Shown here one piece after another: positions 39,439-58,514 of a DNA stretch of 61,365 nucleotides. The stretch lies in NCBI RefSeq assembly GCF_013280595.1, contig NZ_JAAATY010000048.1, positions 1 through 61,365 of the forward strand. Reading direction: 5' to 3'. The position numbers and the translations under genes were made by a program. The notes under the pieces were generated by a model. It was given only the letters and a program-made list of their open reading frames with translations, did no database searches and had not been told where the DNA came from. This stretch comes from Kibdelosporangium persicum. GTDB lineage: Bacteria; Actinomycetota; Actinomycetes; Mycobacteriales; Pseudonocardiaceae. The first letter of the stretch is position 1; each line of letters opens with the position of its first letter.

Positions 39439-39518
39439 CACCCCTTGTGGCGCTGTGGGATGCCCGCGGCAAGGGCGCCCCACAAGCCAGAGAAGCAGAT
39501 CTAGTGATAGGACACCTC

Positions 39519-41747: not shown

Positions 41748-42944
41748 TCAGCCGGCGAGTTTCCGGATCTGCGACTTCGCCAACGCCTGGTGCAGGTCGG
41801 CGAGCAGGTCCGCGGGGTCCTCCAGGCCGACCGAGAGCCGGACCAGGTTGGGTTTGATGCCCGCGGCGAGTTTCGCCTCGTCCGGCAGGCGGCCGTGTGT
41901 CGTGGTGCCCGGGTGTGTGATCATCGACTTGGTGTCGCCGATGTTCGTCGTGTTCGACACCAGGCGCAGGTTGTCGACGAACGTCCACGCCTCCCGTCGC
42001 CCGCCGGCGATCTCGAAGCTCACCAGTCCACCGTGCCCGGTCTGTTGCCTGGCCACGAGTTCCACCTGCGGGTGGTCCGGGCTGCCGGTGAAGTGCACGG
42101 CGTCCAGATCGTCCCTTTGGGACAGCCACGCGTAGATCTCCGCCGCGCGCTCGTCGTGCGCCCGCATCCGGATCGGCAGGGTTTCCAGTCCTTTCAGGAA
42201 GATCCACGCGTTGAACGGGCTCAGGCTCGGCCCCACTGTCCGCAGTACGCCGCGGACCTCCGCGATCAGGTCCTCGTCGCCGGTCACCACGCCACCGCCG
42301 CACCTGCCCTGGCCGTCGATGTACTTGCCGGCCGAGTGGATCACCAGGTCGGCTCCCATCGTGTGCGGGAGCTGGAAGACCGGCGTGCACAACGTGTTGT
42401 CCACGACCAGGAACAGGTCGTGTTCCCGGGCCAGCCGGCTGAGGAACCCGATGTCGGCCACCCGCATCAACGGATTGGTCGGCGACTCCACCAGGATCAT
42501 CTTCGTGGTGGGCCGGACAGCCGCCGACCATGCCTCGTTGTCCCGCACGTCCACGACCGTTGTGGACACTCCGAATTTCCGCATGTAGCCGCGGTACAAC
42601 GTCGTCGTGGTGCCGAAGACGCCTTCAGCGAGCAGGACGTGGTCGCCCTGCTCCAGCAACGCCAGGGACACCGCGATGTACGCGCCCATGCCGGAACCCG
42701 TCGCCACGGCGTCCCTGGCGCCTTCCATGGACGCGATGCGCTCCTCGAACGCGCGCACAGTCGGGTTGGTGAACCGGACGTAGACGTTGCCGGGCCGCCG
42801 TTGCGCGAACTTCTCCGCCGCGTCGAAGGCGTCGTCGAAGGTGTAGCTCGACGTCAGCGCAAGCGCCTCGCTGTGCTGGTCGTCGACGAACTGGTGCTGG
42901 CCGGTCCGCACCGCGTGCGTCGCCTGACCGAGTTCTGGTCGCAT
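41748..42944 (-). CDS. MetZ/CGS-family PLP gamma-replacement enzyme
   Basis: 398 residues of the Cys/Met-metabolism PLP family. The PLP lysine lies in HSAGKYIDGQGR, and IDGQGR is characteristic of O-succinylhomoserine sulfhydrylases (MetZ). Other conserved parts are RFTNPT, GSGMGA and VDNTLCTP. Such enzymes remove the acyloxy group of an O-acylhomoserine and add a nucleophile at C-gamma. A MetA-like acyltransferase two genes upstream could make the activated substrate. Within an NRPS cluster it probably builds a non-proteinogenic amino acid; the nucleophile is unknown. It lies 14 nt after the diiron enzyme gene. Confidence 0.9.
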   Translation of the reverse strand: MRPELGQATHAVRTGQHQFVDDQHSEALALTSSYTFDDAFDAAEKFAQRRPGNVYVRFTNPTVRAFEERIASMEGARDAVATGSGMGAYIAVSLALLEQGDHVLLAEGVFGTTTTLYRGYMRKFGVSTTVVDVRDNEAWSAAVRPTTKMILVESPTNPLMRVADIGFLSRLAREHDLFLVVDNTLCTPVFQLPHTMGADLVIHSAGKYIDGQGRCGGGVVTGDEDLIAEVRGVLRTVGPSLSPFNAWIFLKGLETLPIRMRAHDERAAEIYAWLSQRDDLDAVHFTGSPDHPQVELVARQQTGHGGLVSFEIAGGRREAWTFVDNLRLVSNTTNIGDTKSMITHPGTTTHGRLPDEAKLAAGIKPNLVRLSVGLEDPADLLADLHQALAKSQIRKLAG

Positions 42945-42958
42945 CACGTCGCTCCTCG

Positions 42959-43681
42959 TCAGGCCGGGATCAGCCGGCCCGCCAGGTATTCCTGGTACAC
43001 ACCCTCGTACATCTGGTAGAACAGCTCGCACGTGTGCGACACCGCGTACAGCGCTTCCTGCTGCATCTGCTCGGTCGTGCACATGTCCGCCACCAGGTCC
43101 AGACCTTGTTGTACGTGGTGGACGTCCTCGACCTGGTGCACCGAGAAGAACAGCAGATCCCTCGGCTGCAGGCCGTAGACGCGCTGGAAGATCTCGTCGC
43201 GGGACTCCGATCCCAGCGTCTCCAGGTTCTGCCCCTCGCTGGCGATGGTCACCGCGGCCGCGCCGACGTGGTAGCGCGCCGGGTCCTTCACCGCGTCCAT
43301 CCGGTAGTCGATGAGCTCCTGGGTCGCAGGCAGCGCCACGGCGGCGTCCCGGGTCTCGTCGTCGATCCCGATCGCGTGCAGGAAGTCCTGCATCAGCTTG
43401 ACGTGGTTCTTCGTCTGGGAGATCCGGCCGGTCTCCTCCTCGTACATGTTGTGCAGCAGCCTGCGCTTGTGCCGGGGAAGCGGGCAGTGGAAGAACAACG
43501 TCTCGATGTACTCGAGGAAGTGCTTCGTCAGTTGGTAACCCTGCAGCGCCACCTGTTGCAGGAACGGCAGGTTCGGGTTCTTCTCGTCCAGCAGCACCGT
43601 AAAGATCGGGTGCGAGATGGTCAGCTGCGCGTGTAACGTCTTCTCCAGTTCGTCGCGAAACTCGTCACGCGAAAGCAACAT
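42959..43681 (-). CDS. Haem-oxygenase-like diiron oxidase (HDO family)
   Basis: 240 residues, all-helical. The metal-site pattern is visible: Glu in MYEEETGR ten residues before His in KNHVKLM, a later Glu in ASEGQNLE, and HQVEDVHH matching HxxxDxxH. This is the UndA/BesC/SznF-type superfamily, whose members cleave C-C bonds, desaturate or N-oxygenate amino acids and fatty acids with O2. The ATG at 43681 has GGAGG upstream and overlaps the GNAT gene end. Its likely substrate is an amino acid made by the neighbours. Confidence 0.85.
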   Translation of the reverse strand: MLLSRDEFRDELEKTLHAQLTISHPIFTVLLDEKNPNLPFLQQVALQGYQLTKHFLEYIETLFFHCPLPRHKRRLLHNMYEEETGRISQTKNHVKLMQDFLHAIGIDDETRDAAVALPATQELIDYRMDAVKDPARYHVGAAAVTIASEGQNLETLGSESRDEIFQRVYGLQPRDLLFFSVHQVEDVHHVQQGLDLVADMCTTEQMQQEALYAVSHTCELFYQMYEGVYQEYLAGRLIPA

Positions 43682-44294
43682 CGTCCAACCTCCGTTGTTC
43701 CATAACCACGCCCGCACGCCGCAGGCGCTCATCGATGAACTCTGCGAGCCGCTCGACCGAGTGGCTCATGAAGTGCCCGCGGTGGCTGACACCGTCGACC
43801 CGGCTGTAGTCGTCGAGAATCCCGTACGTGGTGAAGCCGAACCGTCGCCACACCCGGTGTGCGGGGCTGTCCTCGCGGACGTCGATCTTCAGCGTCTCCA
43901 CGCCGAGTTCACGGGTGAGGCCGCAGACCGCCCAGGCGATCTCGCTGATCGCCGTGGTCCGCCGAACCCGCGGTTCCAGGTACGCCTTGCTCACGTCCGC
44001 GATGTGCCTGCAGTTGGGCATGGCCGTGAGGCTGACGATGCACATTCCCACAACACCGTCATCGTCGGAACCGAGCAGCAGGCAGTCCGATCCGCTGAGC
44101 AGCTTGTGCTCCAGGTCGCCGCAGAAGGTGGCCTTCTCGGCCGTGGTGAGCGGCTCGTGGAAGCCGAGGATGCCCTCGTCCTCGGCGCTCCGGGTCACCA
44201 TCGTGGTGACGTCTTCGCCGTACGAGCCGAGTTCCGTGTGCCAGCGCCACTTCCGGACGCCGGTGCTGGACCTCGCGATGACCACGTCAGACAT
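43665..44294 (-). CDS. GNAT-family N-acetyltransferase-like protein
   Basis: 209 residues. The central beta strand and acetyl-CoA loop region is DVSKAYLEPRVRRTTAISEIAWAV with the RRTTAI pyrophosphate loop, followed by GVETLKIDVRED and HRVWRRFGF. It could acetylate an amine of an intermediate or of the product for self-protection. The start at 44294 overlaps the MetA-like gene by eight bases. Confidence 0.8.
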   Translation of the reverse strand: MSDVVIARSSTGVRKWRWHTELGSYGEDVTTMVTRSAEDEGILGFHEPLTTAEKATFCGDLEHKLLSGSDCLLLGSDDDGVVGMCIVSLTAMPNCRHIADVSKAYLEPRVRRTTAISEIAWAVCGLTRELGVETLKIDVREDSPAHRVWRRFGFTTYGILDDYSRVDGVSHRGHFMSHSVERLAEFIDERLRRAGVVMEQRRLDDVAFA

Positions 44295-45090
44295 TGACAG
44301 CCCCCCGTACTGCGGCCAGCCAGTTGGCCGCGACCTTGACGGCGGGGCCGGCCCAGCCGTCCCCGGTTGCCCTGCGGACATCAGGGAAGGCGGCGAAGGT
44401 GTCAGGGCTGCGGCGCCGCCGCGCCCGCACCGAGAAGTCCGCCAGCTCGGCCAGCGTCTCGACGGTGAAGTACCCTGACGGAATGGTCGGGAAGTCGTCC
44501 GACTCCCGGCTGAGATACCGGCGGACATCTCGCCGGTACTCACGGAACAGCGTGTCCGGGAAGTACTCCGGATGCCCTTGGACGAACATGTAGCGGTCGG
44601 CGGCCGCGTACGCCCAATCACCGTCCACAGTGACCATCTGCGCTGTGACGCCCATCAGGTCCACGGTGTTCCAACGTGAGTGCGGCACGTGGACCACATC
44701 GGACAGACCGGCCGTCAGCGGCCCAGGGGCCACCGCGTGCTCGAACACGCCGATCCGTTTGGCCGGTAGTCGCCGCCGGGGCAACGCGTAGAGGTGGTTG
44801 AGCGCCGAGTGCGCCGACAGGCACGAGAACACCACCGGAGCCGATGTGGACTCCAGGATCCTGCCGACCACCGCGTGACACGGATCCTGCCGCAGATCGG
44901 CCGTGCTGGGTTCCGCGCCGGTGACCACCAGTGCGTCGAACGACTCGATCTCGGTCCAGTCGGAGTCGACCACCTGGGTCTCGGTGTCCGGATCAGCGGC
45001 CGAGATCCACGTGCTGAACTGCCTTCCCGCCAGTCCGCGCGCGGAGACCGCCATCAGGTCCACGATGCCGACCCGGTTCCTGCTCGCCAT
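44287..45090 (-). CDS. MetA-like homoserine O-acyltransferase
   Basis: 267 residues of the class-I-glutamine-amidotransferase-like MetA family. ALVVTGAEP is the early strand; the nucleophile Cys is in VFSCLSAHSALNHLYALP; RIGVFEH, PHSRWNTV and VQGHPEYFPDTL give the catalytic His and Glu. It transfers succinyl or acetyl to the homoserine hydroxyl. It is smaller than housekeeping MetA (about 310) and sits inside the NRPS-linked operon with a MetZ-like enzyme, so a biosynthetic rather than methionine role is likely. Confidence 0.88.
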   Translation of the reverse strand: MASRNRVGIVDLMAVSARGLAGRQFSTWISAADPDTETQVVDSDWTEIESFDALVVTGAEPSTADLRQDPCHAVVGRILESTSAPVVFSCLSAHSALNHLYALPRRRLPAKRIGVFEHAVAPGPLTAGLSDVVHVPHSRWNTVDLMGVTAQMVTVDGDWAYAAADRYMFVQGHPEYFPDTLFREYRRDVRRYLSRESDDFPTIPSGYFTVETLAELADFSVRARRRRSPDTFAAFPDVRRATGDGWAGPAVKVAANWLAAVRGAVNV

Positions 45091-45110
45091 GATGAACCCC
45101 CAGCACCGAG

Positions 45111-46031
45111 TCAGTTGAGGTAGATGTTCTTGCCGTGCCGGTCCGAACCGCTCAGCATCACGCAGGCGTGCCGGGAAATGTCGTGGTCGTTGCCGTCGAT
45201 GAAATCGCCGTGGTTGCGGTGCGGGTAGACGGTCACTTCAGGAATGGTGATCCGGAAGTTCATCGCCAGCCGCCGCGCGTCCTCGGTGGTGTTGGGCAAC
45301 GAACCGTGCATGACGCGATCGGTGAAGATGATGAACTGGCCCGCCTTCATTTCGATCGTGTCGACGTCGACGCCCTCGGCCACCGGATCGAAAATCGTTT
45401 CGCACGCGTAGCGGTCGGACAGTTCCGCGAGCCGCTCGGTGTCGCCGGCGCGCACGAGGTTGTCGTAGAAGACCTTGCCGAACACCGATTCGCTGAACGG
45501 GATCCGCTTCACCGGATATTGCTTCACGTGGGTGCCCACCGCGATCTGCATCGCGCCGTTCTCGGCTGTCACGTCGTCGAGTGCCACCCACACCGACAGG
45601 TTGAACAAGTCCGTGTAGAGCTGGTACTCGGGCGGCGGCTCGAGTGCGGGCTTGAACAGGCCGTACTCCTCGCCGGCGAACAGGCTGGACTGGTGCCAGT
45701 CGAGGGCGCCGTCCCTGGCCGCCTTGTGGAAGATCGACGTCCGCCACACCAGCAGGTTCTCTCCCAGCAACGGTTTGACCCGGCTGAGCACCTCGTTGCG
45801 GTACGGGATGGTCAGCAGGTTCTTGAAATGCAGATGCCAGTCGCGGTGGGTGGTGCGGTCGTAGATGGGCGATCGCAGCCTGCCGGAGAGGATGGTGTCG
45901 AATGTCGGCCGTAACGAGGCGATCTGGTCGGCGTCCAGCAGATCGAACGGGCCCAGGTAGCCGCGCTCGTTGAACTCGCTGATCTGTGCGTCCGTGAGTC
46001 CACTGCTCACTCGGGTTTCGGTATTGGTCAT
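45111..46031 (-). CDS. SyrB2/PhyH-type Fe(II)/2-oxoglutarate enzyme with HxS metal motif (candidate halogenase)
   Basis: 306 residues, the size of SyrB2-like chlorinating enzymes. The first metal motif is DWHQSSLF: His and then Ser where hydroxylases have Asp and halogenases have Ala or Gly. The distal His is in VMHGSLPNT, and the 2-oxoglutarate Arg lies in ARRLAMNFR. The middle (LSVWVALDDVTAENGAMQ, then GTH) follows the chlorinating-enzyme pattern. Losing the carboxylate opens a site for halide, so halogenation of a carrier-bound amino acid is plausible, and a stand-alone A and T exist nearby. Ser might also preserve another reaction. ATG 46031 follows AGGAAAGAG. Confidence 0.85.
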   Translation of the reverse strand: MTNTETRVSSGLTDAQISEFNERGYLGPFDLLDADQIASLRPTFDTILSGRLRSPIYDRTTHRDWHLHFKNLLTIPYRNEVLSRVKPLLGENLLVWRTSIFHKAARDGALDWHQSSLFAGEEYGLFKPALEPPPEYQLYTDLFNLSVWVALDDVTAENGAMQIAVGTHVKQYPVKRIPFSESVFGKVFYDNLVRAGDTERLAELSDRYACETIFDPVAEGVDVDTIEMKAGQFIIFTDRVMHGSLPNTTEDARRLAMNFRITIPEVTVYPHRNHGDFIDGNDHDISRHACVMLSGSDRHGKNIYLN

Positions 46032-46118: not shown

Positions 46119-46175
46119 ACCGGCGTGCCGGATGGTGGTATCCGTGGACTGTCCGACCCGACGGAAGTGGGCACG

Positions 46176-47411
46176 ATGACAAGAACAACCAGCCGCGTCA
46201 CCGCGTTCATGATCTTCGCGGTCGTCGTCAGTTTTGTGATCTCACTGGCCGGTTCGTCGCTCAAGACCGCGGTCCAGGTGCTGTTCCTGCCGATCGCCGA
46301 CGGTTTCGAGGTCAACCGCGGCACCCTGGCCATCGCGTTCACGGTGTTCTTCGTGGTGAACGGCCTGATCTCGGCGCCGATCGGGCACCTGGCCGACCGG
46401 ATCGGCGCCGTGCCGGTGATCGCGATCGGCGCGGGCGCTCTCGGCGCCGTGCTCATCCTGTGCGCGACAGCGACGCACATCTGGGTCTTCATCGCCGCGT
46501 TCGGGATCCTGGGCGCGATCGGCTTCACCATGGTGTCGTTCGTGCCGCTGGGCGTGCTCGCCGACCAGCTCTTCGAGGGCCGCGACACCGGCTTGGTCTA
46601 CGCGGTGCTCACCAACGGCGTCGCGGTCGGCTTCATCGTTCTCGTTCCACTGTGGACGCGTCTGAACACGGTGTTGTCATGGGACCAGATCCTGTTCGGC
46701 GCGGGGATCGTCTTCCTTGTCGTCCTGGTGCCGTTGTCGCTGATCCTGGTGAAGACCCACACGCGTCAGGAACGAGTGACCAGGCCCCGGTCCACCATGC
46801 GCGAGGGCGTACGGGCCACGCTGACGAACGCGCGGGCTCGCGCCCTGATCGCGGCCTTCATCGCGTGCGGCGTCACGATGGCGTTCATCGATGTGCACCT
46901 GTTCCCGCACATGCATGACCACGGCGTCTCACCGGGAATCAGTTCGCTGTCGGTCGCGGTGCTCGGCGTCCTGGAGATCATCGGCGGCCTGATCGCCGGC
47001 CGGCTGTGCGACCGCGGCAGGATCCGCGGCACGTTGACGGCCGGGTACCTGCTGCGGGCGGGCGCCATGGTCATGCTGCCGTTCTTCCCGTCCACCTTCA
47101 TGGTCATCGGGTTCGGCGCGGTGTTCGGCGTGAGCTACCTGGCCACGGTCGTCGCCACCACGGTCTGGCTGACGCGTGTCATGCCGCCCGGCACGCTCGG
47201 CACCGCCGTCGGTCTGCTGTGGACAGTGCACATGCTGGCCGTGGCCACCGGCAGCCAGGTCGGTGCCATCCTGGCCGACGTCCAGCACAGCTACCTGCTC
47301 ACCATTCTGGCCAGTGCGGCCATCACGCTCGGCGCGGTCGTCATCGTCGCCGCGCAACCGAGCCCGGACAGCAAGAAGACGGTCGTGGAGGAAGAAGCGG
47401 TTCGCCAGTGA
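46176..47411 (+). CDS. MFS transporter
   Basis: 411 residues with 12 predicted membrane spans and the motif-A-like loop GHLADRIGAVPV after the second span. It resembles the monocarboxylate/oxalate-formate branch of MFS exporters. The start is ATG 46176 with GGAAG upstream. It is divergent from the halogenase-like operon and shares the repeat-containing promoter, so it is probably a cluster exporter. A second MFS is in the NRPS operon. Confidence 0.88.
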   Translation: MTRTTSRVTAFMIFAVVVSFVISLAGSSLKTAVQVLFLPIADGFEVNRGTLAIAFTVFFVVNGLISAPIGHLADRIGAVPVIAIGAGALGAVLILCATATHIWVFIAAFGILGAIGFTMVSFVPLGVLADQLFEGRDTGLVYAVLTNGVAVGFIVLVPLWTRLNTVLSWDQILFGAGIVFLVVLVPLSLILVKTHTRQERVTRPRSTMREGVRATLTNARARALIAAFIACGVTMAFIDVHLFPHMHDHGVSPGISSLSVAVLGVLEIIGGLIAGRLCDRGRIRGTLTAGYLLRAGAMVMLPFFPSTFMVIGFGAVFGVSYLATVVATTVWLTRVMPPGTLGTAVGLLWTVHMLAVATGSQVGAILADVQHSYLLTILASAAITLGAVVIVAAQPSPDSKKTVVEEEAVRQ

Positions 47412-47452: not shown

Positions 47453-48988
47453 TCACGCCACCGGGGTGAACTCCCGGATCAGCCGCTTGCGGTCGACCTT
47501 GCCCACCGAGCTCAACGGGATCGAGTCGCGGTGCTGGAAGCCGCGTGGGTGCATGTACCCGGGCAACCGCCGCAGCAGGTCCATGAACTCGGCGTCGGTG
47601 ACCTTGTCGCCGGTGTACAGGCCGTGCAGGTCGACTTCGCCGTCGGCCGCGGGTACGGCGATCACCACCATCTCCGCGACCGCGGGGTGTCTGCGCAGCA
47701 CGGATTCGATCTCGCTCAGTTCGATCCGGTAACCGCGGATCTTGACCTGGTCGTCGATCCGGCCGAGGTGGACGAGCTCGCCGTCTTCCTTGCGGCATCG
47801 GTCCCCGGTCCGGTAGTAGTGCTCCGGGGTGAGCGACTCGGTGCCGTCGTGGACGCGGCCGTCGACGACGAACCTCCCGGCGTTCTGCGCGGGGTCCAGA
47901 TAGCCCGGGAAGCGCTGCGGGCCGCGTATGCACAGCTCGCCGTCGTCTGTCGGCTGCATGTCGCTGTCGAGCAGGATCCAGTCCACGTGGGGGTAGAGGT
48001 CCCCGATGGGCACTGTGCCGTTGCTGGTTTCGATCCAGTCCGCACAGTCGCGCGGGACCGCGTAGCCGGTGACGACCACGGTCGTCTCGGTCGGGCCGTA
48101 CGCGTTGGTGACAATCGAGTTCGGCGCGGCCTTGGCCCATGCCTCGGCGGCCTCGATGGGCAGCGCTTCGCCACCGAAGGACGTTCGCCGCAGCGTCGGC
48201 ATGCTGCCGGGCGGAAGCGCCCGCAGCCGCCGGGCGAACGAAATGACCGAGGGCGCTGACGCCCAGTGCGTGAGTCGCTTGGCGTTGACGAACTTCACCG
48301 GCGTGAAGACGTCCGCGCGTTGCAACACACAGAGCCGTCCGCCTGCGCCCCACGCACCGAACATCTCGATGATCGAGCCGTCGAAGAACAGCTCGAACGC
48401 ATGGGAGACACGGGACTCCGACGTGAACCGGTAGCGTTCGACGATGTGCTCGACGAACGCGTACATGTTCAGGTCCGTCGTCGGCACGCCTTTCGGTTTG
48501 CCCGTGCTGCCGCTGGTGAAGTTGATGTACGCGATGTCATCGTCGTGCCGCTGAGCCTGCGGCGGGATGCCGGCCACGGGATCCCGCCAGGTGTCGCCCG
48601 TCATGTCCAGGAACCGGCCGCACGCGTTGGCTCGGTACTCGGCCACGTCGTCCCCGGAACTGTGGTCGAGGATGGTGATGTCCAACGCGGCCTCGCCGGC
48701 GATATCGGCGTTCCGCAGGCCAGGCGCGGCCGGGTTGAGGGGCACGGGTGCGCCGCCGAGCCGCAATGCCGCAAGGTAGGCGATGTAGGTGACGGGACTG
48801 CGCGATGTGAGCAGGCCGACCCGGCGGGGCGGCGCACCCAGCACCTTGTGCATTCGCGCTGACATCCATTCGACCGCGGCTTGCAGTTCGGCGTAGGTGA
48901 GCTCGATTCCCGCGACGTCCAGCGCGATCCGTGACGGGTACTTCTCCGCGGACGCGCGGAACCACTCATAGGGGTGTGTCATGGTCAT
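47453..48988 (-). CDS. Stand-alone NRPS adenylation enzyme
   Basis: 511 residues with core motifs TSGSTGKPKG (A3), NAYGPTET (A5), YRTGD (A7) and the A10 lysine in SSVGKVDRK. No carrier domain is attached. My hand-read specificity residues are D-G-I-A-S-G-A-V-V-K, which I cannot assign to a known amino acid. It overlaps the NRPS stop (ATGA) and is the last gene of the operon. It probably loads the free carrier protein at 55.6 kb, giving the pair on which SyrB2-type halogenases usually act. Confidence 0.9.
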   Translation of the reverse strand: MTMTHPYEWFRASAEKYPSRIALDVAGIELTYAELQAAVEWMSARMHKVLGAPPRRVGLLTSRSPVTYIAYLAALRLGGAPVPLNPAAPGLRNADIAGEAALDITILDHSSGDDVAEYRANACGRFLDMTGDTWRDPVAGIPPQAQRHDDDIAYINFTSGSTGKPKGVPTTDLNMYAFVEHIVERYRFTSESRVSHAFELFFDGSIIEMFGAWGAGGRLCVLQRADVFTPVKFVNAKRLTHWASAPSVISFARRLRALPPGSMPTLRRTSFGGEALPIEAAEAWAKAAPNSIVTNAYGPTETTVVVTGYAVPRDCADWIETSNGTVPIGDLYPHVDWILLDSDMQPTDDGELCIRGPQRFPGYLDPAQNAGRFVVDGRVHDGTESLTPEHYYRTGDRCRKEDGELVHLGRIDDQVKIRGYRIELSEIESVLRRHPAVAEMVVIAVPAADGEVDLHGLYTGDKVTDAEFMDLLRRLPGYMHPRGFQHRDSIPLSSVGKVDRKRLIREFTPVA

Positions 48989-51900
48989 CCCTCTCGTGAA
49001 ATGGCTTTCGCCAGCCGCTCGGCCAGGATCGGGCCGATCCGCGGCATGGTGTCCGGCCGCAGCATGTCGTGGTGCCGGATCCCAGTTGGTACGAAGTCGA
49101 CGTCACCGTCGACGTACGGCCGCCATTGCTCCGCGGTCAGCCGGCTTCCACCCGCCACGAGCACGAGCACGTCGGCGGAAACCCGGCCGAGCCGGAGGTC
49201 GGCGGCGATGTCGTGGTGGTGCATCACGTTGTCCAGCAACAGTTCCATCTCGGCAGCCGTCAGGTTCGCCGGATCGACGTGCTTGAGCAGACCTGCCAGG
49301 TCCGGCGTTGCCGACCGCACCGGGTGCGAATCCAGCATCACCAGCAAGCCGACCTGGTGGCCACGGCGTTCCAGCACGGTGGCGACCGTGTGGGCGACGA
49401 TCCCGCCGAACGACCAGCCCAGCAGGTAGTAGGGGCCCTCAGGCTGGACGCTGGTGATGTGCTGGACGTAGTCCTCGGCCATCTCGTCCAGTGACGACGG
49501 ACGTGGTCCGGCCGTCGCCTGCACGCCGTACACCGGCATGTCGAGGTGCGTCAGCAACACCGCGTACGGCCAGCTGAATCCGCTCGCCGCGTGCATGCAG
49601 AACAACGGTGGCCGAGTGCCGGTGGCACGCAGTGGCAGCAACGTCGCGTAGGCGTTGCGGTTGCTTCCCTTGTCCAGGCGTTCCACCAGTTCCGCGACGG
49701 TCGGGGTTTCGAACACCGCGCGCAGCGGCAGTTCGGTGCCGAAGAGCGCGCGGACTCGGCTCACCAGTGTGGTGGCGAGCAAGGAATGGCCGCCCAGTTC
49801 GAAGAAGTTGTCGTCGATGCCGACGGTGTCGCGGCCGAGGACCTCGGCGTACAGTCCGCAGAGGACAGCCTCGTCCGGTGTGCGTGCCGGGCGGCCTGCT
49901 GTGCTGGAGTACTCGGGAGCGGGCAGGGCGTTGCGATCGAGCTTGCCGTTCCGCGTCAACGGCAGCGTCTCCAGCACCATCACCGATACGGGCACCATGT
50001 GCTCGGGAAGGCGTTGGCGGGCGAACGCACGCAGCGACACCGGGGACACGTCACGGGCGACGACGTACCCCACCAACCGGTCGTCACGGACCACCACCAC
50101 CGCCTGGTGGACATCGGGATGAGCGCGCAGTACCGCTTCGACTTCCCGGGGCTCGATCCGGAAGCCCCGCAGCTTCACCTGGTCGTCCGCGCGGCCAAGG
50201 AACACCAGGTCACCGGCTTCGGTCCACCGCACGACGTCACCGGTCCGGTACATCCGCGCGCCGGGCTGGAACGGGTCGGCCACGAACCGTTGCGCGGTGA
50301 GCGCCGGCTGGTTGAGATATCCCCGGGCCAGCCCCGCACCCCCGACGTACAGTTCGCCGGGGCAACCGACGTCAACCGGCCGCAGCCGCGCGTCCAGCAC
50401 GTAGACCCTGGTGTTGGCCATGGGTTTGCCGATCGGCACGGGACCTGGCGGGACAGGCGTGCCGGGTCCGATCCGATGCTGGGTGCAGTTCACGGTCGTC
50501 TCGGTCGGGCCGTAGGCGTTGATCACGGTCACGTCCGGATGCGCGGCCCGCCATCCGGCCAACGCCTCCCCCACCAGCGCCTCTCCCCCGAGGATCAGCT
50601 CGGCGGAGGGCGAGGACCGGGCGTCGAGCAGCGGCAGGTGGCTGGGTGTGGCCTTCATGGCCGTGCAGGGCGGGCTTGACTCGTCCAGTGCCGCCAGCAC
50701 CACGGTCCCGCCGACGGTCAACGGCACGAACATGCCGGTCACCGTGAGGTCGAACGAAACCGAGGAGTGCACGAGCACATCGCCGCGCAACCCGGGGTAA
50801 GCGGTTCCGGCGAAGGCGAGGTAGTCGGCCAGCGACCGGTGTTCGACTACCACGCCTTTCGGTCGCCCGGTCGACCCCGAGGTGTAGATGACGTACGCCG
50901 CGTTGTTCATGCTCAGCGCGGGAAGCGTGGCGTCGCCGGTCAGGTCCGTATCGGTCAGCACGAGCACGGGCCGGGCGTCGGCGAGCATGTACTCGATCCG
51001 CTCGGCCGGGTAACCGGGGTCGATCGGGATGTACGCCCCACCGGCTTTGAGCACGGCGATCAACGCGACCACCAGGTCCACCGAGGGCGGCATCATCACG
51101 CCGACGAACCGCTCCGGCCCTGCCCCACGCCGGACCAACGCTTTGGCCAGCCGGGTGGACCGCTCGTCCAATTCCGCATAGGACAGCGAGTCCGTGCCGT
51201 GACGCACCGCAGCCGCGTCTGGTGTGCGGCGCGTTTGCGCTGCGATCAACTCCGGCAACGTCTCCGTCGCGACGGTCGTGACGGTGTCGTTCCACTCCAC
51301 CACGATCTGGTGGCGGCGTGTGTCGCCGAGCAGGTCGGCGTCACTGACAGGTGTGTCCGGGCTGCCGGTCACGTGCCGGAGCAGACGGGTGAATCCGGCG
51401 GCGATCCGGCGGATGGTGGACCGGTCGAACAGGTCGGTCGCGTAGTCGATCATGCCGGTGATTCCGTCCGGCCCGCGTTCGGTCAGATACATCGACAGGT
51501 CGAACTTCGCGACCGGACGGTCGAACGGCTCCGCGGTGACGGACAGCCCAGGGACCTCCGGGTACGAGGCAGCCGTGCTGGTGACCGACAACATGACCTG
51601 GAACAGCGGATGCCGCCCGAGCCTGCGCGGCGGGTTGATCCCTTCGACCAGCCGCTCGAACGGGACGTCCTGCCGGGCGTACGCGGCCAGATCGGTGTCC
51701 CGGACCCGGGTGAGCAGGTCACGGAAAGTCGGGTCGCCCGACACATCCGTCCGCAGCACCAGGGTGTTGACGAAAAACCCGACCAGCCCGTCCAGCGCCT
51801 CGTCGGTGCGTCCGGCGACCGGCGTGCCGATCGGGATGTCCGTACCGCCGCCTGCTCTGTGGATGAGCGCCGCCAAGGCCGCCTGCATCACCATGAACAC

Positions 51901-54900
51901 GGTCGTCCCGGTCTGTGCGGCCAGCCGGGCCACGTCGTGACGCAGGTCCGCGTCCAGTTCGAACCGCACCCGGTCGCCACGATGCGACGCCACCGCTGGC
52001 CGTGGACGGTCCCTGGGCAGGTCGATCTCGTCCGGTATCCCGTCGAGCGCCTCCCGCCAGTAGTCGAACTGCCGGCTGATCAGGCTCTCCGGGTCGTCCT
52101 CGGCGCCGAGGAGTTCTCGCTGCCATAGGGTGTAGTCCGCGTACTGCACGGGCAGCTCTGTCCACTCTGGAGGATTTCCGGCGGTCCGGGCGGCATAGGC
52201 GTCGAACAAGTCCTGCCGCAGAGGTGCCATCGACCAGCCGTCGCCCGCGATGTGGTGGATGACGATCACCAGCACTGACTCCGTGTCGGCGACGCTGTGC
52301 AGCCACGCGCGGATCGGCAGTTCGGCGGACAGGTCGAACTCGTAGTCACCTGCTTGCGCCAAGCCCGGGGCTTCGGTGACCAGGGGGACGCCGAACGAAC
52401 TGAGGACCGTTTGCCGTGGCTGGCCGTCGACCTCGGTGAACACCGTCCGCAATGCCTCGTGGCGGGCGACCACGTCGTTGAGCGCCGCACGCAGTGCGGG
52501 CACGTCGAGCCGGCCTGACAGCCGGAGCGCGACGTGCAGGTTGTATGTGGCCGACCGGCCGTCGAGCTTGTCGAGGAACCAGAGCCGTCGCTGGGCGTAG
52601 GACACGGGAATGGCGTCCGGCCGGGCGGTCCGGCGCAGCATGGGGCGCCGACGCTGTGGATCCAGGTGGGGTGCCAGCCCGGCGACGGTCGGGTTGTCGA
52701 AGAGCGTCCGGATCGGCAGCTCCACGCCCATGACCGCACGGATCCGGCTGATCAGCCGGGTGGCCAGCAACGAATGCCCGCCCAGGGCGAAGAAGCTCTC
52801 CTCGACGCCGACCTCGGCACGGCCGAGCACCTCGGCGAACATGTCACACAACACCTGTTCCTGCGCGGTACGCGCGGCACGGCCCGTGATGCCCGCGGGT
52901 TCGAGCTCACCCGCCAGTGCCCCCAGCGCGGCACGGTCGACCTTGCCGGTGCGGGACATCGGGATCTCGTCGATCTGGTGGACCCGGCTGGGCACCATGT
53001 AGCCGGGCAGCCGTTCGCGCAGCAGCGTGAGATCGACTTCGGTGCCGGTGCCGACGAACAGCACCAGCCCGCCGTTGTGGGCCACCGCGACGCCCGGCAC
53101 GATCGACTCGATCTCACCGAGCTCGACCCGGTGGCCCCGGATCTTGATCTGGGTGTCCAGCCTGCCCAAGTACGTCAACGTCCCGTCGCCGGCCTGGACG
53201 ACCTGGTCGCCGGTCCGGTACATCCGGCCGCTGCCCGCGAACCGGTCGGGCAGGAAGCTCGCCGCGGTGCGCTCGGCGTCACCCGTGTACCCGTCCGCCG
53301 GGCAGCATCCGCCGAGGAACAACTCGCCAGGCACGCCGGGTGGCGCGAGATGGCCGGTCTGGTCGACCACGTAGGCCAGCACGCCGGGCAACGGCCTGCC
53401 GATGGGCACGTGGTCCGGCCAGTCGAACGGGTTTCCGCTCAGCTGGTGGGCGATCGCTCCGTTGGTCTCGGTCGGGCCGTACGAGTTGATCAGGGTGCAT
53501 TGCGGGTGCCGGGCGAAGAAGGCGCGGATCTCGTCGTCGATCAGCAACTGCTCGCCCGACACGCACACCTTCCGCAGTGCCGGGAACTGTGTGGCCCCGG
53601 CGGCGTGGACGAACGGGCGCAGCGCGGCCACAGGCAGGTAGACGTTGGTCAGCCGGGCACTGGCGACACGGTCCACAATGGCCGGGAAGTCCCGCCGGTC
53701 GGCCGGCTCCCGTGCCACCAACGTGCCGCCCGCGGCCAGGGTCGGCATGATCTCGTTGAAGGACACGTCGAAGCCGAGCGGCGCGTACTGCAGGAACCGG
53801 GTGCCGGGGCGCAGGTCGAACGCGTCGATCTGCCACGCGGTCCGGTTCAGCAACGGGCCGTGTCCCATCAGCACCCCTTTGGGGACCCCGGTCGAGCCCG
53901 ACGTGAACATCAGGTACGGCGCCGAGCGGGGATCGCCGCCGGGTGCGGTCGCGCCGCGGCCCGCGGCCAGCAGGCCGTGCAGACCGATCACGCGCACGCC
54001 TGGCAAGTCGATTCCCTGCCCGGCGGCGATCCGGCAGCGCGCCAGGCCCACGAGGGTGGTCAGGCGCGCGGCCGGGAGTGTCCGGTCGAGTGGCAGGAAC
54101 GTCGCACCACAGCGCAGGATCGCCAGCATGGCGACCGCGGTGTCGGACAACGTGTCCGTGGCCAGTCCGACGACGTCACCCGTGGCGACGCCATACCGGG
54201 CCAGGCCGGCGGCCGCCTGCCAGGCAGCATCGCTCAGTTGCCGATAGGTCAGCTCACATCCGGGTTCCTCGACAGCGACAGCGTCAAGCGGCGCTTCGTC
54301 GACCCAGTCGGTGAGGGTCGCCTTCGCCGGGAGGCGTTGCGGACCGGCGATCGGTGCGGCGTCCTCGAAGAGGTCCGCCAGCGTCCGCTCGCCCTCGGCC
54401 GTGGCTTGCTGGACCGCGGTGCGCAACGACGTCATCAGGGCGTTTGCGGCGGCCGGGGTGATCAGCTGCTGATCATGGTCGAGGTCGAGCCGCCACCTGC
54501 CGCCGACGAGCGTCACGCCGAGCCGCACGTCGAACTTCACCGTGCCGTTGCCCAACTCCCGCACCCCGGGGTCGTCGACCGTGTCCTGCATCGCCAGCAT
54601 CGCGGAGAACAGCGGATTGCGGTTGCCCACCCGGTCCCGCCCGGCCTCGGCGACCAGCCGGTTGAAGCTCAGGTCGACGTTGGCCCGGCAGTGCTCGACG
54701 GCCTCGCGCACGGTCTTGCCGACATGCTCGCCGACCGTCCGGTCCCACTCGACGTCAACCGTGACGGGCAGGGTGTTGACGAAGAAGCCGACCAGGTCGT
54801 ACGCGCCGACCGTCCGCCGGGACACGAACGGGCTGCCGATCAGCACACGGGACGCTCCGCTGTGCCTGGCCAGAACCGCGCCGTAGACAGCCGTCAGCAG

Positions 54901-55593
54901 CACGAAGGGCGTGACCTCGAATCGCCGGCACGTCTCCTGCAACAGCGTGGTCTCCGCCGCGGTCAGCGTCCAGGACTGGCGGACGGCGACGAAGTCCGTC
55001 TCGACCGGCCGGTTCGGTCGCGGCGCCAGTTCCAGAGGCGGTACGTCACGCAGGTGCGCCGCCCATGCTGTCGTCCGCTCAGCCGCGGTGTCCTTGACCC
55101 GGTTCTGCGCCTTGAGTTCACGAGCCAGCGCCGTCTCGCGGGCGATGCGGACCGCGTCGATGTCCGTCAGGTCACCGGCCAGGATGGCGCGCAGGTCCTT
55201 GGCCATCGGGCTGAGCGAGACGCCGTCGCTGACGATGTGGTGGCAGCAGAGCAGGATTCCGGCGCTGTCGCCGTCGTTGGTGTAGCCGAACCGGTAGGCC
55301 GGACCGGTGTGCAGGTCGAAGGCGTCCCGGCACAGTTCCTCGACGCCGGCGCCGATCCGGACCGGGACCTCGGCGGGTGGCGGCGCCAGCACCGCGTGGG
55401 TCTCGGGCAGGCGGGCGAACACCTGGCGCATCGCCGGCTGGATCGTCACCAGGACGGCCAGCGCCCGGCGGACGTCGTCCACAGGCAGGTCAGGGGGCAC
55501 GTCGAACCGGACGACCTCGTTGTAGATCCGGTGCTCTGGCACGAGCCGGTCGACGAGCAGCAGCCCCTGCTGGGACTCGGTGATCGGGAGCAT
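48985..55593 (-). CDS. Nonribosomal peptide synthetase, C-A-T-C-A-T-TE
   Basis: 2202 residues. C1 (HHIVSDG near residue 116), A1 (about 400-900, TSGSTGVPKG, NSYGPTET), T1 (GGHSLL near 938), C2 (HHIAGDG near 1114), A2 (about 1440-1900), T2 (GGHSLL near 1933), and thioesterase with GWSFGG near 2059. By hand, A1 reads D-V-N-V-C-S-S-G-A-K (unassigned) and A2 D-L-T-K-I-G-A-V-N-K, close to Asp/Asn codes with Lys at position 278. The leading C domain implies an upstream donor on a separate carrier. The product is a short peptide released by TE. No epimerisation, methylation or MbtH domain is seen. Confidence 0.95.
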   Translation of the reverse strand: MLPITESQQGLLLVDRLVPEHRIYNEVVRFDVPPDLPVDDVRRALAVLVTIQPAMRQVFARLPETHAVLAPPPAEVPVRIGAGVEELCRDAFDLHTGPAYRFGYTNDGDSAGILLCCHHIVSDGVSLSPMAKDLRAILAGDLTDIDAVRIARETALARELKAQNRVKDTAAERTTAWAAHLRDVPPLELAPRPNRPVETDFVAVRQSWTLTAAETTLLQETCRRFEVTPFVLLTAVYGAVLARHSGASRVLIGSPFVSRRTVGAYDLVGFFVNTLPVTVDVEWDRTVGEHVGKTVREAVEHCRANVDLSFNRLVAEAGRDRVGNRNPLFSAMLAMQDTVDDPGVRELGNGTVKFDVRLGVTLVGGRWRLDLDHDQQLITPAAANALMTSLRTAVQQATAEGERTLADLFEDAAPIAGPQRLPAKATLTDWVDEAPLDAVAVEEPGCELTYRQLSDAAWQAAAGLARYGVATGDVVGLATDTLSDTAVAMLAILRCGATFLPLDRTLPAARLTTLVGLARCRIAAGQGIDLPGVRVIGLHGLLAAGRGATAPGGDPRSAPYLMFTSGSTGVPKGVLMGHGPLLNRTAWQIDAFDLRPGTRFLQYAPLGFDVSFNEIMPTLAAGGTLVAREPADRRDFPAIVDRVASARLTNVYLPVAALRPFVHAAGATQFPALRKVCVSGEQLLIDDEIRAFFARHPQCTLINSYGPTETNGAIAHQLSGNPFDWPDHVPIGRPLPGVLAYVVDQTGHLAPPGVPGELFLGGCCPADGYTGDAERTAASFLPDRFAGSGRMYRTGDQVVQAGDGTLTYLGRLDTQIKIRGHRVELGEIESIVPGVAVAHNGGLVLFVGTGTEVDLTLLRERLPGYMVPSRVHQIDEIPMSRTGKVDRAALGALAGELEPAGITGRAARTAQEQVLCDMFAEVLGRAEVGVEESFFALGGHSLLATRLISRIRAVMGVELPIRTLFDNPTVAGLAPHLDPQRRRPMLRRTARPDAIPVSYAQRRLWFLDKLDGRSATYNLHVALRLSGRLDVPALRAALNDVVARHEALRTVFTEVDGQPRQTVLSSFGVPLVTEAPGLAQAGDYEFDLSAELPIRAWLHSVADTESVLVIVIHHIAGDGWSMAPLRQDLFDAYAARTAGNPPEWTELPVQYADYTLWQRELLGAEDDPESLISRQFDYWREALDGIPDEIDLPRDRPRPAVASHRGDRVRFELDADLRHDVARLAAQTGTTVFMVMQAALAALIHRAGGGTDIPIGTPVAGRTDEALDGLVGFFVNTLVLRTDVSGDPTFRDLLTRVRDTDLAAYARQDVPFERLVEGINPPRRLGRHPLFQVMLSVTSTAASYPEVPGLSVTAEPFDRPVAKFDLSMYLTERGPDGITGMIDYATDLFDRSTIRRIAAGFTRLLRHVTGSPDTPVSDADLLGDTRRHQIVVEWNDTVTTVATETLPELIAAQTRRTPDAAAVRHGTDSLSYAELDERSTRLAKALVRRGAGPERFVGVMMPPSVDLVVALIAVLKAGGAYIPIDPGYPAERIEYMLADARPVLVLTDTDLTGDATLPALSMNNAAYVIYTSGSTGRPKGVVVEHRSLADYLAFAGTAYPGLRGDVLVHSSVSFDLTVTGMFVPLTVGGTVVLAALDESSPPCTAMKATPSHLPLLDARSSPSAELILGGEALVGEALAGWRAAHPDVTVINAYGPTETTVNCTQHRIGPGTPVPPGPVPIGKPMANTRVYVLDARLRPVDVGCPGELYVGGAGLARGYLNQPALTAQRFVADPFQPGARMYRTGDVVRWTEAGDLVFLGRADDQVKLRGFRIEPREVEAVLRAHPDVHQAVVVVRDDRLVGYVVARDVSPVSLRAFARQRLPEHMVPVSVMVLETLPLTRNGKLDRNALPAPEYSSTAGRPARTPDEAVLCGLYAEVLGRDTVGIDDNFFELGGHSLLATTLVSRVRALFGTELPLRAVFETPTVAELVERLDKGSNRNAYATLLPLRATGTRPPLFCMHAASGFSWPYAVLLTHLDMPVYGVQATAGPRPSSLDEMAEDYVQHITSVQPEGPYYLLGWSFGGIVAHTVATVLERRGHQVGLLVMLDSHPVRSATPDLAGLLKHVDPANLTAAEMELLLDNVMHHHDIAADLRLGRVSADVLVLVAGGSRLTAEQWRPYVDGDVDFVPTGIRHHDMLRPDTMPRIGPILAERLAKAISREG

Positions 55594-55599
55594 CGCGGG

Positions 55600-55821
55600 T
55601 CACCTCATCTCGCTCAGCCAGGACTTCAGGTCGCCGACCGTGCGCAAGCCGGCCATCCGGGCGGCGTCGATCTCGGTGTCCTCGTCGGCGGCGACCTCGA
55701 CGGCCAGCCGCACCAAGGCCAGCGAGTCCAGGCCGGCCTCCCGCAACGTGGTCGTGTCGTCGATCGGTCCGTGGGCGTGGTTCGCGATCCGCGTGTCCAG
55801 ATCGGACATGTGTGTGGTCAT
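55600..55821 (-). CDS. Stand-alone carrier protein
   Basis: 73 residues with the phosphopantetheine motif GLDSLALVRL. It is short but complete. The ATG overlaps the LLM gene stop (ATGA), and it lies 6 nt before the NRPS start. It is the natural partner of the separate adenylation enzyme and the donor to the first condensation domain. A downstream ATG at 55809 is an alternative start. Confidence 0.9.
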   Translation of the reverse strand: MTTHMSDLDTRIANHAHGPIDDTTTLREAGLDSLALVRLAVEVAADEDTEIDAARMAGLRTVGDLKSWLSEMR

Positions 55822-56690
55822 GGCTGAGGCACCTTGTGAGAAGGGAGCAAGGGAAGCACGGCACGCTCGAAAGCCCGCGGGTCGCCCGCGTAAACGCCTT
55901 CGGCGCGGGGATGAGCCAGGACGACGTCGGTGAACCCGAGCGCGGCACAGCGTCCGACGAGGTCGGTCAGCCGCTGCGGCGAGCTGTACGGATCCGCGAC
56001 GATCCGGCTGAGGTTGACCAGTTTTCGCAAGCCGCCGCCGCGCAGGCGCTCCATCTGCCCGCGAAGGCGGTCGAACGCCACGGTCTCCGCCTCGAAAGCG
56101 TCCGGCCGGCCCGTGGTCACCCACATCTGGCCGAACTGAGCCGCCAGGCTCATCGCCCGCCGCCCGGCACCGGCGATGGCCAGCGGAATCCTCGGCTGCT
56201 GCACACATCCCGGGATCATCCGGACGTCGTCCGCCGAGTTGTACCGGCCCTGGAAGGTCGTCACCGGGTGCCGCAGCAGCCGGTCCAGCAGCGTCACGAA
56301 CTCCTCGAACCGGTTGGTTCGTTCCGGGAGGGACAGTTCGGGCCCACCGAGCGCGGTGCTGTCCGGCGGTGGCCCGCCCGCCCCGGCGCCCAGCGTGAAC
56401 CGCCCTTCGCTCAAGTGGTCCAGGGTCATCGCCTGCTTGGCCGTGACCACCGCGGAACGGAAGTTCGGTGAGGTGACAAGCGTTCCGATACCGATTCGGC
56501 TCGTCACGACGGCCGCCGCCGCCAGCGTTGTCATCGCGTCGAACCACGGGCGGTCTCGTAACGTCCGCCACGACAGATGGTCCAAAGTCCACGCGTGCGC
56601 GAAGCCCATGGCCTCCACCCGCTGCCAGACTTCGAGACCGGTTCGTCCCGGGTGTTCCGGCAGGACCAACACCCCCAATCGCGTGGTCAT
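55818..56690 (-). CDS. LLM-class (luciferase-like, F420/flavin) oxidoreductase
   Basis: 290 residues of TIM-barrel bacterial luciferase-like fold: opening GVLVLPEHP, SRIGIGTLVTSPNFR, and LSEGRFTLGAGAGG. Actinobacterial members of this size often use F420 but some use FMN. It lies between the exporter and the carrier protein in the NRPS operon, so it probably oxidises or reduces the amino acid or the peptide. Closely related enzymes include flavin-dependent hydroxylases acting on carrier-bound amino acids in NRPS systems. Confidence 0.87.
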   Translation of the reverse strand: MTTRLGVLVLPEHPGRTGLEVWQRVEAMGFAHAWTLDHLSWRTLRDRPWFDAMTTLAAAAVVTSRIGIGTLVTSPNFRSAVVTAKQAMTLDHLSEGRFTLGAGAGGPPPDSTALGGPELSLPERTNRFEEFVTLLDRLLRHPVTTFQGRYNSADDVRMIPGCVQQPRIPLAIAGAGRRAMSLAAQFGQMWVTTGRPDAFEAETVAFDRLRGQMERLRGGGLRKLVNLSRIVADPYSSPQRLTDLVGRCAALGFTDVVLAHPRAEGVYAGDPRAFERAVLPLLPSHKVPQP

Positions 56691-56691
56691 G

Positions 56692-57948
56692 TCACTCCTC
56701 GACCGCCGCGGCCCGGCTGGCCTGCCGGCGCAACGCCCAGTTCCCGGTGAGCACGGTCCCGACTCCGGCGACGAGGAACACCGCCCCGAGCACGAACCAG
56801 CCGGTCGCCCCCAGTTCGACGAGCAGACCCGCCATCACGCCGGGCGCGAGCATCAACGCGGCCGCCTGGCCGGTGTTGAACACGCCCTGGTACTCGCCGT
56901 GGGCGCCGTCCGGAGTCAGGCCGACCGACAGCCCGAGCCCGCTGCCCATGAACAGCAACTCCCCCGCCACGTGAATGGTCGCCGCGATCAGCAGGACCAC
57001 CAGAACCGTCGTGCCACTGCCGTTGTAGGTCGCGGCGAACGCCAGGCACGCCACAGCGAGCAGGATTCCTGACCACAAGCCAAGCCGCCCGGCGCCGTGC
57101 ACGGTCTCGCCGCGCCTGGTGACCCGGTTCTGGAACAGCACGATCATCACCGAGTTGAAGCCCACCAGCACGCCCATCACCCACGTCGGCGCCTGCGTGT
57201 GGCTGGCGATCCACAGTGGAGTGCCGGAGCTGAGCATGCCGAAGCACAACGCCAGCATGCCGTTGAACGCCGTGAGCACCAGGAACGGACGATCGCGCAG
57301 GACCAGCACGCGGCGCTTGACCTTGCGGTCCCGCAACGACTCGACGTGCGGTACCCGCCGGAGCAGCACGACGAAAACAATGTTCGAGATGCCGTAGAAA
57401 AGGATCATCGAGAGGTAGCCGATCCTGCTGTCCACCGCGAGCACGATCGCACCGAAACCCGCGCCGGCCACGATCCCTGCCTGCGTCATCACCCGCGTGG
57501 TGGACACGCTGGCCAGTCGTTCCGCGCGGCTGACCATGCCCGTGATCACCGCGGTGCGAATGCCGGGAATGGCCCGCTCGGCGGCCAGCATCACGCAGGT
57601 CACGATCACGATCGGCCAGAAGTCACGCACGAAGAGGAAGGACAGCACGGCGATGCCCTGCACCAGGCCGAGAGCGACGAGCATCTCGCGCGCACCCAGT
57701 CGGTCGGCGACATAGCCCAACGGCCCGCCCGCGATCATGCCGATCAGGCCCGCCGTGGTGATGCCGATCCCGAACTGCGCGGTCGTCAGTCCCAGCGAGC
57801 GGACGAAGAAGATCGCCCAGCACGTGAACCAGGCGCCCTTGCCGACCGAGAGGACCAGGGACGCCAGGTACAGGGTGCCAATCGGACGGCTCCACCACGC
57901 CACGGTCGTCCAGCCGGGCCTGCGTGCCGTGCCCTCAGCCAAGATCAT
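56692..57948 (-). CDS. MFS transporter (multidrug type)
   Basis: 418 residues with about 12 membrane spans. Motif A, GPLGYVADRLGAREM, lies after the second span, and the fold resembles drug-efflux MFS proteins. The start overlaps the TPP-enzyme stop (ATGA). Being inside the NRPS operon, it is a likely product exporter or immunity protein. Confidence 0.9.
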   Translation of the reverse strand: MILAEGTARRPGWTTVAWWSRPIGTLYLASLVLSVGKGAWFTCWAIFFVRSLGLTTAQFGIGITTAGLIGMIAGGPLGYVADRLGAREMLVALGLVQGIAVLSFLFVRDFWPIVIVTCVMLAAERAIPGIRTAVITGMVSRAERLASVSTTRVMTQAGIVAGAGFGAIVLAVDSRIGYLSMILFYGISNIVFVVLLRRVPHVESLRDRKVKRRVLVLRDRPFLVLTAFNGMLALCFGMLSSGTPLWIASHTQAPTWVMGVLVGFNSVMIVLFQNRVTRRGETVHGAGRLGLWSGILLAVACLAFAATYNGSGTTVLVVLLIAATIHVAGELLFMGSGLGLSVGLTPDGAHGEYQGVFNTGQAAALMLAPGVMAGLLVELGATGWFVLGAVFLVAGVGTVLTGNWALRRQASRAAAVEE

Positions 57949-58514
57949 CGCCCCTCCTGCGCGGCCAGTGCGGCGGTGAACCGCTGGGCGTGCCCGCCGA
58001 GGTCGCCGTCGACCCTGGCGGGAACAGGCGAATCCGGGCCGCTCACCACGCACCGGATGAACGTCGTCGTCGTGCAGCTTCGCAGCACCGTGCCCAGCCG
58101 CTCGGCGAGACACTCCGGGTCGGTGACCTGGTACACCCGTCCGTAGCCGCAAACCCATGCCAGTGCGCAGAAGTCCGGCCGGTTGGGCACGACCTGCCCG
58201 CCGGTGGAGTCGTACCGGCCGTCGTCCAGAACGATGTGCACCAGCGGCAGGGATTCCTGCGCTCCCGCTGTGAACAGGCCGACCGGGTTCATCAGCGCGC
58301 TGCCGTCACCGTCGACGACGACGGTGGGCCGGTTGGTCTGCTGGGCGATGCCGATGCCGATGGACGACGCCAGTCCCATCGACCCGGTCATGTAGAAGTG
58401 CGTCGCCCGGTCGGCGATCATCCTGGCGATCCGGCACATGTACCCGGTGCTGAACACGATCGGCTGATCCGGTGCCGTCGCGATGATCGTCCGCAGTGCG
58501 TCCGTCTTGTTCAT
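57945..58514 (-). CDS. TPP-dependent decarboxylase beta subunit (ComE/phosphonopyruvate-type)
   Basis: 189 residues. The thiamine diphosphate motif starts GDGSALMN and ends near VLDDGRYDSTGGQ; STGGQ is characteristic of sulfopyruvate and phosphonopyruvate decarboxylases. It forms the C-terminal half of the enzyme, with the alpha subunit encoded just upstream (4-bp overlap). The reaction is decarboxylation of a 3-substituted pyruvate to an aldehyde. Substrate is open: no PEP mutase gene is present, which argues against phosphonopyruvate. Confidence 0.9.
   Translation of the reverse strand: MNKTDALRTIIATAPDQPIVFSTGYMCRIARMIADRATHFYMTGSMGLASSIGIGIAQQTNRPTVVVDGDGSALMNPVGLFTAGAQESLPLVHIVLDDGRYDSTGGQVVPNRPDFCALAWVCGYGRVYQVTDPECLAERLGTVLRSCTTTTFIRCVVSGPDSPVPARVDGDLGGHAQRFTAALAAQEGR

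Follow-up and report, generated by a model that had tools for sequence, protein, structure and literature searches.

A GNAT and diiron oxidase gene pair with differing partner enzymes, and a candidate amino acid pathway in Kibdelosporangium persicum

Introduction

Why would a bacterium place a MetA-like and a MetZ-like gene in one operon with an oxidase and an acyltransferase, close to genes for a nonribosomal peptide synthetase (NRPS)? The question is raised by a stretch of 61,365 nucleotides from Kibdelosporangium persicum (NCBI RefSeq assembly GCF_013280595.1, contig NZ_JAAATY010000048.1, positions 1 to 61,365), the whole of which we call the window. It contains the following five genes.

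41748..42944, minus strand: MetZ-like pyridoxal phosphate (PLP) enzyme of the O-succinylhomoserine sulfhydrylase family (NF006003, cassette clade, 14 diagnostic columns; ATG behind GAGGAG, resembling a ribosome-binding site)
42959..43681, minus strand: haem-oxygenase-like diiron oxidase (HDO)
43665..44294, minus strand: GNAT acyltransferase, tabtoxin-resistance/PAT-like
44287..45090, minus strand: MetA-like homoserine acyltransferase (PF04204, 101.3 bits; Cys and GHPEY motifs)
45111..46031, minus strand: iron/2-oxoglutarate (Fe/2OG) enzyme of the PhyH family, with WHQSS replacing HxA/HxD (PF05721, 6.9e-21; SyrB2 and CytC3 alignments; tree)

On the minus strand the genes run head to tail from the Fe/2OG enzyme through the MetA-like enzyme, the GNAT and the HDO to the MetZ-like enzyme; two junctions overlap and the other two gaps measure 14–20 bases. 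Start codons were picked from motifs resembling ribosome-binding sites, such as the GGAGG before the HDO gene, and from the sequences of relatives. The packing and the curated family models confirm the five tightly packed genes described in an earlier interpretation of this DNA, which we call the sequence-only reading. We propose that the product of the operon is a non-protein amino acid: the MetA-like enzyme would activate homoserine, the MetZ-like enzyme would build from it what is probably an amine-linked 2-aminobutyrate, and the HDO and the GNAT would oxidize and acylate the product; we put the probability of this reading at about one half.

Distribution of the cassette

The HDO was found in three of 390 genomes of the host's family, its own included (E<=1e-20), the seven listed genomes of the same genus being without it, and among 396 genomes of the phylum in the host only (1e-30). 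Scanning the GTDB species collection with a pattern that catches close relatives only gave eight HDO relatives among 44 matched stretches. The class (274 genomes) and family (117) of Rhodanobacter, searched at 1e-40, added one new genome with two HDO copies (G828) to those known from loci L020 and L021, and plasmids gave a single weak partial match. We compared 13 HDO loci (the window, L012, L013, L014–L017, L018, L019, L020, L021, L044 and L045), and used tblastn together with family scans to score the co-travelling genes over the 12–20 kb around each.

The GNAT accompanies the HDO in 11 of these loci and was not found in L013 and L045, and MetZ is present in seven (the window, L013, L014–L017 and L019). 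Three loci encode a nicotianamine-synthase (NAS)-like protein, recognized by Pfam in L018 and L020 and by 38–46% identity to those two in L044, and one (L012) encodes an SbnA-like protein, which scores 290.5 bits, below the cut-off of 349.95. No MetZ, NAS-like or SbnA-like enzyme was seen at L021, where 40 kb more was also searched, or at L045, whose genome also holds L044. Transporters of the major facilitator superfamily (MFS) occur in eight loci, precisely those of the PLP type, the one in the window sharing 30–45% identity with the other seven; NRPS genes lie near four (the window, L018, L020 and L021). The MetA-like and Fe/2OG genes found no tblastn match in the 12–20 kb around the 12 other loci, and we therefore reject the conservation of all five genes as a unit. 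Linkage holds for the GNAT–HDO core and, in part, for MetZ, the full set being seen in the window only. Besides a few relatives of the window host, the bacteria with the core are Photobacterium, Colwellia, Methylobacter, Rhodanobacter and Tahibacter. Judged by its gene content, the cassette core is portable and sparsely found, and its presumed donor enzyme differs between loci.

Several of these loci carry further genes. At L012:7755-12470, GNAT, HDO and MFS genes precede an Asp/Glu racemase gene, with the SbnA-like gene facing them, an arrangement reminiscent of D-cycloserine or opine-metallophore logic. The Photobacterium and Methylobacter cassettes share a related gene of the dienelactone hydrolase family after MetZ (L015:13259-14131), followed in L015 by what looks from its open reading frame like a GlxA-type regulator. 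Apparent phenazine-type reading frames, likewise recognized from the frames themselves, lie about 4 kb beyond the Photobacterium cassette at L014:17389-20755, and similarly in L017.

The MetZ-like enzyme

The MetZ-like enzyme exceeds the cut-off of NF006003 (532.5 versus 522 bits) and misses that of TIGR01325 (478.7 versus 510.05). In a 16-row tree, which leaves out L017 and one host paralogue (L032 on contig C26, frame not recovered), the six cassette MetZs included fall into a single clade with support of 100/99, separate from the annotated Pseudomonas O-succinylhomoserine sulfhydrylase, from one unannotated relative each of Burkholderia, Caballeronia and Microvirga, and from six paralogues of the host itself. 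Fourteen alignment columns are fixed in all seven cassette MetZs and different in the four canonical-type rows from the same four genera. The most telling of them is the residue directly before the PLP lysine, which is Gly206 in all seven cassette enzymes and Thr in all four canonical-type rows as well as in the six host paralogues. By tree and alignment, the cassette MetZ is a lineage of its own.

The diiron oxidase and the acyltransferase

The HDO passes PF14518 (88.7 versus 28.9 bits), and its residues of the 3His/3carboxylate type, predicted from sequence to ligate the metals, are invariant in all ten aligned sequences. It stays below the cut-off of TIGR04305, the CADD model (86 versus 200). 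The place of the sacrificial tyrosine of CADD (Tyr27/25) is occupied by F44 in the window and by F, V or L in relatives, and that of the sacrificial lysine (Lys152/159) by S177 and by S, A or H, respectively; F44 was placed by offset assuming no gap, and S177 by alignment, taking the aligned lysine as the sacrificial one. The L044 HDO has a lysine one place off that position. Since both CADD-type sacrificial residues are missing, we expect the HDO to have a small molecule as its substrate. The HDO tree places the MetZ-type proteins on one side of a weakly supported branch (71/72) and scatters the NAS-type ones, which would fit swapping of the partner enzyme without demonstrating it.

No Pfam or NCBIfam model matched the GNAT alone; its family profile and structure model both point to the tabtoxin resistance protein (TTR) as best relative, which hints at an antimetabolite as the product. 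In six loci (L014–L017, L020 and L021) GNAT and HDO form one uninterrupted reading frame.

The MetA-like enzyme and methionine genes of the host

Could the MetA- and MetZ-like genes simply serve methionine synthesis? The host genome (10.35 Mb in 89 contigs) holds a MetX-like gene on contig C36, which scores 423.6 bits, below a model cut-off of 500 that none of seven control genomes passes either. It adjoins a PF01053 gene that we provisionally take for the O-acetylhomoserine sulfhydrylase type, and the genome has eight PF01053 genes, seven of them outside the window. These genes rule out the possibility, named in the sequence-only reading as fatal to its proposal, that MetA and MetZ are the only methionine-type genes of the genome.

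The MetA-like protein is the sole HTS-family member found in the host (1e-10). It clears the PF04204 gathering score of 27 with a partial match (profile positions 96–288 of 298) and fails three equivalog cut-offs (182.2 versus 358, 75.9 versus 495 and 66.9 versus 460.5). We presume that its Cys and GHPEY motifs have their usual functional roles. At the place of E. coli MetA Gly111 the alignment puts Ser62, not the Glu that marks acetyl-CoA-using types. Five MetZ-bearing proteobacterial genomes (G785–788 and G790) each encode an HTS-family protein elsewhere and could therefore supply O-succinylhomoserine without a MetA in the cluster. In the window host, to judge by its gene set, a MetX-like gene is present and O-succinylhomoserine may otherwise be absent. 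The metA region of Tsukamurella has no biosynthetic cluster in its annotation.

The Fe/2OG enzyme

The sequence-only reading called the Fe/2OG enzyme halogenase-like and SyrB2-like. A feature of halogenases is the replacement of the carboxylate ligand in an HxA or HxG motif, according to PMC12871659. The window enzyme aligns with SyrB2 and CytC3 and has HQS, within WHQSS, where those have HQA; it thus lacks HxA/HxG. Its score with the chlorinating-enzyme model TIGR01762 is 129.6 against a cut-off of 226.3, two annotated chlorinating enzymes reaching 447.3 and 422. In a nine-row tree, whose eight other rows all come from the plasmid collection (8 of 40 matching records), it groups with support of 100/100 with two Vibrio proteins having HQE or FQD, and none of 385 other genomes of the host's family has a relative at 1e-40. 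The motif, the score and this grouping speak against taking the enzyme for an established halogenase, and the label is not supported. The serine does leave the enzyme without a carboxylate at that place, so that halogenation would still be conceivable.

Two SyrB2-family relatives, L061 and L063 from Nonomuraea and Nostoc records, carry WHQV at the halogenase motif, which means that HxV exists besides HxS. The nearest relative found (HQE) belongs to an NRPS region on a Vibrio europaeus plasmid (L048:1-19615), where it adjoins TauD, aminotransferase and Ldh genes.

Proposed pathway and alternatives

What could the five enzymes make together? We infer every reaction, its nucleophile and the order of steps from the enzyme families. 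The MetA-like enzyme would acylate homoserine, probably with succinyl-CoA, to give O-succinylhomoserine; a cluster copy would be needed because the host seems to make methionine via MetX and not via this intermediate. The MetZ-like enzyme would then exchange the gamma-acyloxy group for a nucleophile, most likely an amine, to yield R-NH-CH2-CH2-CH(NH2)-COOH, a 3-amino-3-carboxypropyl amine. This product or its acylated form would be oxidized by the HDO, most likely by N-oxygenation or oxidative cleavage, and the GNAT would acylate the product as a pathway step, as protection of the producer against an amino acid that is toxic to it, or as both. The MFS protein would export the product, the Fe/2OG enzyme would add a further oxidation, and in the window the NRPS would build the amino acid into a small peptide.

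The choice of an amine draws on the partner enzymes of other loci. In nicotianamine synthase and CntL the acceptor of the 3-amino-3-carboxypropyl group is an amine, and SbnA transfers a 2-amino-2-carboxyethyl group to glutamate. To our knowledge, an amine is the only kind of nucleophile with precedent in the MetZ, NAS/CntL and SbnA families alike, and by this analogy the MetZ product is most likely amine-linked. Nicotianamine synthase and CntL themselves are SAM (S-adenosylmethionine)-dependent, unrelated to MetZ and without a relative in the window; what they have in common with the proposed MetZ step is the transferred group, and their relatives stand beside GNAT and HDO in L018, L020 and L044. 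Among PLP enzymes of natural product pathways, CndF, Fub7, AnkD and Mur24 add a new nucleophile onto a vinylglycine ketimine (PMC10367076), and for LolC the joining of proline to homoserine has been proposed (PMC4274035, PMC10367076), though LolC is not biochemically characterized according to PMC10367076. Going by the LolC proposal, nitrogen nucleophiles are open to MetZ-family enzymes. All five would share their cystathionine-gamma-synthase (CGS)-type chemistry with the window MetZ; the window enzyme belongs to the O-succinylhomoserine branch, and the available passages on these systems describe no pairing with an HDO and a GNAT.

Only about a dozen HDOs have a validated function according to a 2026 review (PMC13108848). 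CADD/PabS, HrmI, FlcE/FlcD, BesC, PolF and MboA share the Pfam family, the ligand-type residues and in some cases the fold with the window HDO, which differs in lacking the sacrificial residues of CADD and, as far as the open abstracts and passages describe those pathways, in its partner genes. TTR, PAT and ArsN1 likewise share profile and fold with the GNAT, which differs from them in overlapping an HDO gene or, in other loci, being fused to it.

Two observations weigh against parts of this account. By plain identity the nearer neighbour of the window MetZ is, by a small margin, the Pseudomonas MetZ (53%) and not the Photobacterium cassette MetZ (49–51%), which speaks against a separate cassette lineage, and genome G190 carries MetZ without any HTS-family protein found, which misfits the MetA logic. 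Its locus (L013:8517-10369) has a shortened HDO beside MetZ, with neither GNAT nor MetA found there, so it may be a decayed cassette.

We find the interpretation of the sequence-only reading supported in part. It coupled its MetA and gamma-replacement logic, which the families fit and which we favour in the form given above, to a halogenase and to the Bes pathway. Halogenation, C–C cleavage of HDO type and elimination by a CGS-family enzyme would then lead to propargylglycine or another unsaturated amino acid like it. That pathway shares the HDO, CGS-family and 2OG enzyme classes with the window; with the halogenase label gone, the parallel is weak and the route quite improbable, as the HDO appears nearer to CADD than to BesC, no relative of the Fe/2OG enzyme was found in the 12–20 kb around the 12 other HDO loci, the GNAT is extra, and such a pathway would have no need of MetA. 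A sulfur route is unlikely, too, in which homocysteine or an S-substituted form of it would come from the MetZ-like enzyme and be oxidized by the HDO in a fluopsin-like manner: the NAS-like enzymes known to us alkylate amines and not thiols, and the 14 cassette-specific MetZ residues, including the one beside the PLP lysine, set the cassette enzymes apart from the four canonical-type rows compared.

Another explanation would divide the labour, with the GNAT serving self-resistance only, the HDO tailoring the NRPS peptide and MetA/MetZ boosting the supply of methionine or homocysteine. GNATs of the TTR and PAT types confer resistance and an extra MetA could raise flux; yet the Photobacterium and Methylobacter loci carry GNAT–HDO–MFS–MetZ while nothing within 12–20 kb matches the window NRPS or adenylation domain, and the single GNAT–HDO frame of six loci argues for a shared pathway step, the overlap or fusion suggesting a pathway role besides resistance. 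We hold this division of labour to be rather improbable. Azetidine-2-carboxylate as a product of the NAS-like enzymes was dropped: the one NAS-like protein searched, that of L018, had NAS and CntL as PDB matches, with no azetidine synthase among seven rows, and one would not expect such a reaction of a PLP-dependent MetZ.

The sequence-only reading knew of no described pathway joining MetA, MetZ, an HDO and a SyrB2-like enzyme with an NRPS, and we likewise found none with this gene combination in the abstracts and passages of the open literature. The operon suggests a known kind of system, the supply of a noncanonical amino acid, either to feed an NRPS or as a free product, here as a swapped-donor cassette core. 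One might speculate, with the odds against it, that an aminocarboxypropyl transferase, an HDO and a TTR-like GNAT form a portable module of three enzymes making N-oxidized, amine-linked 2-aminobutyrates, a new class of antimetabolites or monomers; two unrelated donors (O-succinylhomoserine for a PLP enzyme and SAM for a NAS-like one) would have been recruited for the same bond, with a beta-analogue made via the SbnA-like enzyme, and MetA would have been co-opted in the window host for an O-succinylhomoserine pool otherwise lacking. The recurrence of the core with a different enzyme that may attach the carbon chain offers a hypothesis, open to experiment, about a small amino acid of which we found no description, and the Photobacterium operon is a compact place to look for the product.

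Gene neighbourhood

Upstream of the five genes lie a plus-strand MFS gene, a stand-alone adenylation domain and the NRPS.

46125..47411, plus strand: MFS transporter (MFS_1, 4.7e-31)
47453..48988, minus strand: stand-alone adenylation domain (AMP-binding, 4.9e-61; TIGR01733, 309.9 bits, slightly below the cut-off of 317.4)
48985..55593, minus strand: NRPS of 2202 aa, C-A-T-C-A-T-TE (Pfam and motifs)
55818..60255, minus strand: LLM (luciferase-like monooxygenase) oxidoreductase, second MFS protein, TPP (thiamine pyrophosphate) decarboxylase alpha-like protein and DUF6002 protein, a possible cluster extension of uncertain membership

The stand-alone adenylation domain shows no carrier domain. 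Read by eye at the usual pocket positions, the specificity codes are DVNYCSSGAK and DLTKLGAVNK for the first and second NRPS adenylation domains and DGIATFAVVK for the lone domain; we take the second to be Asp/Asn-like and know of no specificity that the other two match.

Window positions 394-32767 hold a separate biosynthetic cluster with a squalene-hopene-type terpene cyclase, several P450s, UbiA, ketosynthases, FabA, a DXS with a ferredoxin domain and a PhyH gene of its own (25740-26600). Between the two clusters stands a GH5-type cellulase that carries a ricin-type lectin domain (39138-41003). Near the contig end, at 58511-60255, a small protein resembling the alpha subunit of sulfopyruvate/phosphonopyruvate decarboxylase (98.6 bits, cut-off 147.95) overlaps the DUF6002 gene.

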